Of a DNA stretch of 64,000 nt, positions 25,947 to 28,352 are shown one piece after another. The notes below the pieces were generated by a model. The model was not told where the DNA came from and ran no database searches. It saw nothing but the letters and a program-made list of their open reading frames with translations. The position numbers were made by a program, and so were the translations under genes. The stretch comes from Pannonibacter indicus. Lineage in GTDB: Bacteria > Pseudomonadota > Alphaproteobacteria > Rhizobiales > Stappiaceae. The stretch lies in the NCBI RefSeq assembly GCF_001418225.1, contig NZ_LIPT01000001.1, positions 248,001 to 312,000 on the forward strand, read 5' to 3'. Positions within the stretch are counted from its first letter, which is position 1; every line of letters starts with the position of its first letter.

Positions 25947-27032
25947 TCAGTCTGCAGGAAGATCGGACCGCAGGGCAAAGCGCTGACGGGCGTCCTCAAC
26001 CCGCATGGCGTCGAAGCGCGCCAGCGCCTGCGCGCGGGCCTGAACCGTGAGCCGGTGGCGCCAGGGGCCGGCCTTCAGCAGGGTCGCCACCGTCAGTGAC
26101 GACAGATTGTTGGCCTTGGCGACGATGAGGAAAGGCTCCACCTCAAGGCGGACCATCCAGTTGCTGGCCTCGGTGACGCTGACCTTGGTCAGGGAGGCGA
26201 AAGCCACCACGGCTTCGGCAAACCGGTCATCGGCTGCCAGCCAGCGCAGGCTGCTCTCGTTGAGGCGCCCGTCGCGCATCATGGTCAGCACCCGGGTGCG
26301 CGCCGCTTCAAAGTCGTAGCGGCTCAGCCAGTAGTCATTCGACATGCGCTGTTCGGGAATGCGGGCGGCCTGCGGCAGCTGCTCCGCATCGGCCAGCGCA
26401 CCGGCAATCACCAGCTTCTGGCGGACGGATTCGGTGGCCACTTCCACCAGCCGGGCGATATGCGCATCGGCAAGATCGCGGCGCTCGCTCAGCGCCAGCT
26501 GCAGGGCATGGTCCTCAGCCGCAGCATCCAGCAGCCCCTCGAACCCTTCCAGCGAGAACGCGGCCCCCGGGTTGGCGGCGACGCGGCGCTTGACGCGGAT
26601 GTCACCGCGGCGGACCAGAACGTCGGTGACTTCCTCGGACAGAACTTCACGCTGGGCGATGGCAAGGCGGTGGGCATTACTGTTGACATCGGCAATCCCG
26701 GCGAGTTCGGGATCCTTCAGCACACTGGAACGGCGCAGCAGAGTTTCGGCGACTTCGATCTCATCGCCAGCCAGCTGGCGGATGGTGCGCTCGGGCCCCC
26801 TGCGAAGCTCCGCCAGCCGCTCGGCCACAAAGCGCCGGACCTCCACTTCCACCATGTTCACCAGCCGCAACAGGACCGTGTCATATATGTCGACCTGTTC
26901 GTCGGAGCATTTGTCTGAGGTCAGAGAGAAGAGTACGGCAACATGACGGGCGAGTTCCGCCTTCCGGTCTGCGCTGGCTTCGGACGATAGTCCGCCAAAA
27001 TTCACAAGCTCCGTCTGCAACGCTTCTGTCAT
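25947..27032 (-). CDS. DUF2336 domain-containing protein (copy 2)
   Basis: A 361-residue soluble helical protein of the same family as the gene at 16331-17401. Shared features are the N-terminal ARHVAVLF-type helix, the central LAIAQREVLSEEVTDVLVRRG (compare LNEAVTSVIVSRGNTEVL in copy 1) and a C-terminal stretch with FLIVAKANNLSS (compare LIILCRANGVTD). The two are distant paralogues. No membrane or signal segments are seen. Function unknown. Confidence 0.75.
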   Translation of the reverse strand: MTEALQTELVNFGGLSSEASADRKAELARHVAVLFSLTSDKCSDEQVDIYDTVLLRLVNMVEVEVRRFVAERLAELRRGPERTIRQLAGDEIEVAETLLRRSSVLKDPELAGIADVNSNAHRLAIAQREVLSEEVTDVLVRRGDIRVKRRVAANPGAAFSLEGFEGLLDAAAEDHALQLALSERRDLADAHIARLVEVATESVRQKLVIAGALADAEQLPQAARIPEQRMSNDYWLSRYDFEAARTRVLTMMRDGRLNESSLRWLAADDRFAEAVVAFASLTKVSVTEASNWMVRLEVEPFLIVAKANNLSSLTVATLLKAGPWRHRLTVQARAQALARFDAMRVEDARQRFALRSDLPAD

Positions 27033-27261
27033 CTCTCAACCCACATTCGAGGACACGCCAGCACTCTAATAGCGATTCTTGAAGATAAGAGTAACGCCAA
27101 AACGTATTCTCTAAGTATGTTTTACCAGCTATCGTTTAAAATTTTAATAAACTAATTTTTCTTTGTTACTTCAACAATTTGAAGCTGAAGAGAACCAAAG
27201 CACCCGACCACACCAGCCTGCGAAGCTTGCGCGAAGCTTGCCAAACGGGGGTACGGGAGGA

Positions 27262-27280
27262 AAATTACGTAGCGTAATTT
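27262..27280. promoter_or_regulatory. 19-bp palindrome downstream of the candidate sRNA
   Basis: AAATTACG-TAG-CGTAATTT is a perfect dyad. It may be an operator, or a second terminator stem after the sRNA terminator, since minus-strand reading continues into ATTTTCC. Confidence 0.45.
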
Positions 27281-27288
27281 ATTGATCA

Positions 27289-27323
27289 AATAAAAAAATG
27301 GGCGGCCCCAAAAGAACCGCCCA
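27289..27323 (-). terminator. Leftward intrinsic terminator without an upstream protein gene
   Basis: On the minus strand, TGGGCGG / CCGCCCA with an 11-nt loop is followed by TTTTTTTATTT. No open frame on that strand ends nearby, so it most likely ends a small RNA transcribed away from oxyR. Confidence 0.85.
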
Positions 27324-27380
27324 GTCTGGCACCAGTAGCTGGAAACTACTCACAGAGCCATGCTGGCGGAAACCGGACAT
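27290..27380 (-). ncRNA. Candidate small RNA divergent from oxyR
   Basis: About 90 nt between a possible promoter (CTTATT and CTATTG spaced 17 bp, the latter at 27387-27392) and the strong terminator at 27289-27323. An internal stem AGTAG / CTACT and the CCAGCATGG region suggest structure. The position matches OxyS in enterobacteria, which is divergent from oxyR, but no sequence similarity is claimed. Confidence 0.5.
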
Positions 27381-27428
27381 CAGGTCCAATAGGATTGATT
27401 CGGCTTTTAAATAAGATAAACTGATCAT

Positions 27429-28352
27429 ATGATCTCACTCCGCCAGCTTCGCTATCTCGACGCCCTCGCCACCCACCTGCATTTCCGCAAGGCGGCGGAG
27501 GCCGTCGCCGTCACCCAGCCTGCCCTGTCCATGCAGATCAAGGAGCTGGAGGAAAGCCTGGGCGTCATGCTGGTCGAGCGGCGCTCCGGCCTTGCCCGGC
27601 TGACGCCGGAGGGCGAGGAAGTGGTGCGGCGCGGGCGGCGCATCCTCGCCGATGTGCGCGATCTGATGGACTACGCCCGCCACCGGGGCCAGCCTCTCAC
27701 CGGGCCACTGCGTCTTGGCATCATCCCTTCGATCGCGCCCTATCTTCTGCCCCGCGTCCTGCCCAAGCTGCAGAGCGGCCATCCGGACCTGCGGCTGACC
27801 TTGCGCGAGACCCTGACGGATGTGCTGGTGCAGGAATTGATGGCCGGAGAACTGGACGCCATCATCGCCGCGCTGCCCCTCGGCCAGCCGGAACTGACCA
27901 CCCTGCCCCTCTTTGAAGACCGCTTCCTTCTGGCGGTGCGCAACACGCCCGATCTCGACGAGCGGCGGCGGATCGGCATTGACGAGATCCGGCAGGAGGA
28001 ACTGCTGCTGCTGGAGGAAGGGCATTGCCTGCGCGACCAGGCGCTCAACTACTGCCAGATCGTCACCTCCGGCCGCCGGTCCTCGCTGGGTGCGACCAGC
28101 CTTGCCACGGTGATGCAGATGGTCGCCGCCGGTTATGGCGTCACCCTGCTGCCGGAAATCTGCGCGGATGTGGAGGTGCGCGACGACCGCGTTGCCCTGC
28201 TCCGCTTTCAGGATCCCCAGCCTGCCCGCATGGTGGGCCTGGCCTGGCGGCGCACATCCCCACGGCGCAAGGATTTCGAAAGTCTGCGGGATACTCTGGC
28301 GGTCACGCTCAGCGGGCTTGGCGTGGCTTCAACACCGCTGGAAATTAGTTAG
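27429..28352 (+). CDS. oxyR: Hydrogen peroxide-sensing LysR-type regulator OxyR
   Basis: A 307-residue LysR-family regulator. The N-terminal helix-turn-helix is in LHFRKAAEAVAVTQPALSMQ. The C-terminal sensor domain has the redox pair in GHCLRDQALNYC, two Cys separated by eight residues as in OxyR Cys199/Cys208, which form a disulfide on peroxide exposure. This motif separates OxyR from other LysR proteins. No catalase or peroxiredoxin gene is adjacent. It is divergent from the candidate sRNA. Confidence 0.92.
   Translation: MISLRQLRYLDALATHLHFRKAAEAVAVTQPALSMQIKELEESLGVMLVERRSGLARLTPEGEEVVRRGRRILADVRDLMDYARHRGQPLTGPLRLGIIPSIAPYLLPRVLPKLQSGHPDLRLTLRETLTDVLVQELMAGELDAIIAALPLGQPELTTLPLFEDRFLLAVRNTPDLDERRRIGIDEIRQEELLLLEEGHCLRDQALNYCQIVTSGRRSSLGATSLATVMQMVAAGYGVTLLPEICADVEVRDDRVALLRFQDPQPARMVGLAWRRTSPRRKDFESLRDTLAVTLSGLGVASTPLEIS

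Follow-up and report, generated by a model that had tools for sequence, protein, structure and literature searches.

Upstream of oxyR in Pannonibacter indicus, a strong terminator points away from the gene and appears to end a transcript that encodes nothing. This raises the question of whether an RNA gene is divergent from oxyR here, comparable to OxyS of Escherichia coli, and if so, where it came from. The locus was analysed in a 64-kb stretch of DNA (the window) taken from an assembly of 4.17 Mb in 36 contigs, referred to below as G000. According to the initial annotation, the leftward terminator is not preceded by any protein gene and is separated by about 100 bp from the oxyR start. Both statements were confirmed: on the minus strand only about 105 bp lie between the terminator and the oxyR ATG, and they hold no protein gene. 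The terminator stem, TGGGCGGTTCT-TTT-GGGGCCGCCCA, has 11 pairs, 7 of them G-C, and is directly followed by the T run. Using strict criteria (at least 9 pairs, at least 6 G-C and at least 6 T in the tail), five terminators were found in the window versus none in eight dinucleotide-shuffled windows, and shuffling of the local kilobase produced a strict terminator in 1 of 200 cases. Covariation of the stem pairs was not significant among the five Pannonibacter sequences. The features of the locus are listed in Table 1.

Table 1. Features of the oxyR locus, in window coordinates.
Feature	Position	Strand	Basis or remark
DUF2336 gene	25947..27032	-	Pfam PF10098; next gene after katG in relatives, marker of the deletion
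Intrinsic terminator	27292..27323	-	Stem 27323-27299 plus T7 run 27298-27292; 5/5 Pannonibacter species have a hairpin and T run in this position
Predicted short RNA, about 61 nt	27292..27352	-	-10 box sets the predicted start, T run the predicted end
Conserved motif CTGGTGCCAGACT	27323..27335	-	Homologous to katG 3'UTR of relatives, TTTGGTGCC--ACTTGAGGGG
-10 box CAGCAT (weak)	27360..27365	-	18-bp spacing from the -35 box
-35 box TTGGAC	27384..27389	-	Overlaps the operator; conservation
OxyR-type operator GATCAGTTTATCTTATT...AATCAATCCTATTGGACCTGAT	27367..27426	-	Matrix score; common to oxyR and the divergent RNA
oxyR, 307-aa LysR-type peroxide sensor	27429..28352	+	NCBIfam OxyR PRK11151; CX8C redox cysteines

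A 49-aa open reading frame on the minus strand (27428-27279) was rejected as a coding gene. Its product matches no Pfam family, its start falls inside the OxyR-type operator, and the frame is not conserved, P. phragmitetus having no ATG at this start and a frame-breaking indel in the hairpin loop. Across the five Pannonibacter species no conserved ORF was found in the unit. The DNA between the terminator and the DUF2336 gene contains a perfect inverted repeat, AAATTACG-CTA-CGTAATTT (27262-27280), which is fully conserved with P. phragmitetus within a 29-nt identical block and is possibly an operator or a second terminator-like element. A short direct repeat, CAAGCTTCG(C) (GCGAAGCTTGCGCGAAGCTTGC on the plus strand), at 27210-27250 is also present in P. 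phragmitetus.

Judged by its product, the adjacent gene is of the true OxyR type. The best NCBIfam model is OxyR PRK11151 (266 bits, E=3.7e-79, below the cut-off of 329 for this model), the redox pair is present as GHC-LRDQALNY-C (GHCLRDQALNYC), and the protein is 98% identical to OxyR of P. phragmitetus DSM 14782, the nearest named genome. With a matrix derived chiefly from oxyR loci that are linked to catalase genes in other genera, the operator scored 30.6 bits; outside it, the next site in the window had 1.4 bits, and the other four Pannonibacter reached 27-49 bits. The -35 pattern TTRGnn occurs at the same place in all five Pannonibacter and in most katG-linked loci. At equal spacing, the -10 boxes of the other Pannonibacter read CATCAT, CATGTT, CACCTT and CTACAA (the last in SL95), and those of several katG-linked Roseibium TATCTT or CATGAT. 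A promoter pair with 17-bp spacing, as originally proposed for this gap, was not listed by the promoter scan, and conservation instead backs the pair with 18-bp spacing, which, with weak -10 boxes, is found in all five species. The expected transcript of ~90 nt has to be revised as well, as these boxes predict about 61 nt.

The predicted RNA consists of a hairpin, AGTAG-TTTCCAG-CTACT, followed by the conserved CTGGTGCCAGACT and the terminator, and it folds better than its shuffled versions (z = -2.9). The genus forms one clade in OxyR trees, and its five members differ greatly in the predicted length of this RNA (61, 57, 162, 261 and 92 nt), the DNA between the operator and the 3' element being fully changed in length and sequence, to the point that it cannot be aligned. 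What is kept in all five is the 3' element, in which TTTTGRTGCC(A/C)GACT, in this form or a closely similar one, precedes a GC-rich terminator, with the core GRTGCC(A/C)GACT (GRTGCCMGACT) just 5' of the terminator. With lengths that range between 57 and 261 nt, a conserved function could reside only in the 3' part. A lack of terminator conservation in relatives had been named beforehand as a reason to abandon the idea of an RNA gene; the unit is kept in 5/5 Pannonibacter species, thus the proposal survived this test within the genus. Taken together, the sequences support the prediction that all five species have a short transcription unit which runs divergently from oxyR and encodes no protein.

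The position of this unit is best understood from the gene order in relatives. Elsewhere in Stappiaceae and Rhizobiales, oxyR is paired with a divergent katG or monofunctional catalase gene, or, in some Stappia, with an acyltransferase-like gene. Genome G006 has the order SufR, oxyR, divergent katG and DUF2336, with an opposite-strand TrmO-like gene before DUF2336, and Roseibium aggregatum and further Roseibium likewise have katG divergent from oxyR with DUF2336 beyond. The Pannonibacter order is SufR, oxyR, divergent element and DUF2336, and none of the five genomes has a protein gene between oxyR and DUF2336. All five carry katG once, unlinked to oxyR, and lack a monofunctional catalase (PF00199); the only katG of the window genome, at G000:C8:48405-50561, has an unrelated 3'UTR. 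In the KatG tree the Pannonibacter proteins fall inside the Roseibium clade, which suggests that katG was relocated rather than replaced from outside. No coding remnant of KatG, KatA or TrmO was found in the gap at the five Pannonibacter loci, and tblastn gave no significant match to KatG or KatA. The deletion of katG looks complete; a recent deletion should have left a coding remnant, whereas an old one need not have.

Several other catalase arrangements were seen during this comparison. The relocated katG of three Pannonibacter (L117, L120 and L121) has a weak upstream OxyR-like site, CTTATC...CCGACTTAAGNTGATCGG, and the katG upstream regions of the window genome and P. phragmitetus differ from these. 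In Roseibium limicola (G016; L036, L163), katA and katG are seemingly in tandem between oxyR and DUF2336, and katG-like frames each broken by one in-frame TGA occur at G062:C9:195205-196560 and G063:C3:3754-4935. In several Stappia (L037, L041, L046-L050) catalase is lost and the OxyR-type divergent promoter faces the acyltransferase-like gene, while L040, L042 and L045 have the order oxyR-katA-acyltransferase. In Stappia, loss of the catalase next to oxyR has thus ended differently, with the acyltransferase arrangement.

The 3' element itself could be traced to katG. A covariance model built from the five Pannonibacter elements only was run over 87 Stappiaceae genomes and scored 51-81 bits in the five Pannonibacter and at most 31 bits elsewhere; as a separate gene, the 3' element is absent beyond Pannonibacter in this set. 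The best genome-wide match, although weak, lies immediately after the katG stop codon at the oxyR locus both in G006 (C2:1395673-1395720) and in R. aggregatum (G071; C37:102801-102853), and one match in G103, not its best, also lies in the 3'UTR of the oxyR-linked katG. When katG-centred loci were searched with the unfiltered model, these three 3'UTRs took ranks 1, 2 and 4. In local alignments to the element of a second Pannonibacter genome, G001, they ranked 1-3 with scores of 31, 28 and 26. The next score, 17, came from the controls, 153 terminators with 45-nt leaders from which loci picked by the covariance model had been left out. For each of the three scores, 0 of 2000 shuffles reached the value. 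The core alignment pairs TTTGGTGCCAGACTTGAGGGG of the G001 element with TTTGGTGCC--ACTTGAGGGG of the katG 3'UTR in G006 and R. aggregatum. Clear pairwise similarity is confined to G001, the other Pannonibacter elements having drifted; the window's own element, taken alone, shows no clear similarity to the katG 3'UTR and is joined to it via the genus alignment. The unit thus occupies the place of katG, between oxyR and DUF2336, and its 3' element is homologous to the katG 3'UTR, clearly for G001 and weakly for the window copy. An origin from the katG promoter and the katG 3'UTR is, on these comparisons, well supported.

Our preferred explanation, which we consider probable though by no means secure, is that the unit is a non-coding, OxyR-controlled short RNA that derives from a katG unit with its coding region deleted, and that arose independently of OxyS. 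The ancestral locus would have had katG divergent from oxyR and followed by DUF2336. After katG had moved or been copied elsewhere, its coding part at oxyR would have been deleted between promoter and 3'UTR, so that the OxyR operator and the promoter came to lie before the 3'UTR and terminator of katG. Hydrogen peroxide would oxidise OxyR at the CX8C pair, and OxyR at the operator would then recruit RNA polymerase to the overlapping promoter, and the resulting short RNA, about 61 nt long here (57-261 nt in congeners), would end at the terminator. Activation by OxyR is the natural reading because of the operator, the position of the promoter, and the CX8C type of OxyR. A 5' hairpin, an unpaired stretch and a U-rich terminator form the usual layout of Hfq-dependent regulators, and the predicted product shows this layout, with the unpaired stretch conserved. 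The RNA would most likely regulate targets in trans by base pairing, with the hairpin loop and CUGGUGCCAGACU as its contact regions, and its U-rich tail may serve as the site for the chaperone Hfq. We infer transcription, activation by OxyR with induction by peroxide, Hfq binding and target regulation from these features.

The main rival is that the unit is a functionless relic, in which the operator is kept for autoregulation of oxyR, the terminator shields DUF2336, and any short RNA is noise. OxyR operators at such loci do serve both directions, conservation is lacking in the spacer that leads from the operator to the element, and the -10 box is weak. A target search also came out empty: in a simple complement search, the 11-nt complement of the motif occurred at one other site in the genome, which was rejected because it lies antisense inside a coding gene, and no credible target was left. 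Against a relic, GRTGCCMGACT has been retained before the terminator in all five species amid scrambled neighbouring DNA, and a conserved leader motif counts against a pure insulator, which would need none. In addition, the window and P. phragmitetus, the two closest species, share a run of about 38 identical nt within the predicted RNA. The preceding spacer is 72% identical in this pair, and fourfold sites reach 82% in oxyR and 85% in DUF2336. We therefore regard a relic as unlikely, if still a serious contender.

Rather improbable is a role as leader or attenuator of DUF2336, in which an OxyR-driven transcript would mostly end at 27292 and sometimes read into this gene. The two are on the same strand, with the terminator about 260 nt before the DUF2336 ATG, and S. 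albiluteola, S. sediminis and H. zoysiae have no strong terminator between oxyR and DUF2336. However, in the ancestral order, as in G006, DUF2336 comes after katG and the opposite-strand TrmO-like gene, so that it needs its own promoter, and consistent with such a promoter, the region upstream of DUF2336 (27179-27033) is 90% identical to that of P. phragmitetus. That the element is a derived copy of the alphaproteobacterial sRNA mmgR (RF00519) is very improbable: despite a comparable layout (a hairpin, then a single-stranded stretch with ...AGACU, then a GC-rich terminator), it scores 21.5 bits in the window and 26.2 bits in P. carbonis, far below the gathering score of 41, it lacks the mmgR loop motif CCUCCCUAGACU, a true mmgR of 62.7 bits lies elsewhere in the window genome (G000:C7:189305-189381), and homology to the katG 3'UTR accounts for both its position and its motif, so that membership of this family was rejected. 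The window genome has a second, sub-threshold mmgR-like site at G000:C14:49248-49323.

Compared with known systems, the unit shares with the alphaproteobacterial mmgR/suhB sRNA the plan of hairpin, single strand and terminator. Another comparison is with the divergent oxyR-katG unit of Rhizobiales, where a bidirectional promoter is reported to place katG under OxyR control (PMC11975290): the operator and promoter region are the same, but the katG coding sequence is gone in Pannonibacter and only the promoter and the 3'UTR are left. The RNA body, an mRNA 3'UTR with its terminator, resembles 3'UTR-derived sRNAs such as UdsC of Rhodobacter sphaeroides, which is said to affect peroxide resistance (PMC9779115). 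Unlike these, the parent coding sequence in Pannonibacter has been lost at the locus, and the RNA would be the product of a gene in its own right, transcribed from the parental promoter, and would not arise by processing. In the literature on OxyR in Pannonibacter and on sRNAs at alphaproteobacterial oxyR loci, nothing was found on the present locus.

The closest comparison is with OxyS of E. coli and its relatives. OxyS is expressed in a peroxide- and OxyR-dependent manner and pairs with mRNAs such as fhlA in an Hfq-dependent way. The Pannonibacter unit has the same arrangement: it runs divergently from oxyR, lies behind an OxyR-type operator, is short and without a coding sequence, and is closed by an intrinsic terminator. 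Its T7 tail is a candidate Hfq site. The initial annotation claimed no sequence similarity to OxyS, and none was found. At the gathering threshold Rfam gave no match in the window, relaxed thresholds gave sub-threshold matches only, and OxyS (RF00035) was rejected, with no match up to E=5 in 27000-27500. Of the OxyS-like sRNA initially suggested, the short non-coding unit behind a conserved operator therefore stands, whereas membership of the OxyS family does not. The unit also differs from OxyS in structure, in being alphaproteobacterial and katG-derived, in its predicted length of 61 nt, and in that its induction by peroxide is deduced. How new regulatory RNAs originate is an open question, and relatives that still have katG in place permit a direct before-and-after test. 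For OxyS, an evolutionary origin from the mRNA of a peroxidase has been reported (Krieger et al. 2022, MBE msac020, as cited in PMC11975290 and PMC9788540), and the Pannonibacter unit would be an independent parallel to this origin in another bacterial class. It is conceivable, and we propose this tentatively, that loss of the katG coding region in the Pannonibacter ancestor created a peroxide-induced sRNA from the promoter and 3'UTR of the gene itself, a second birth of an OxyS-type regulator. If true, this second case, from a different peroxidase gene, would point to a repeatable route to regulators, in which the coding part of a peroxide-controlled mRNA is lost and the remaining ends turn into the regulator.
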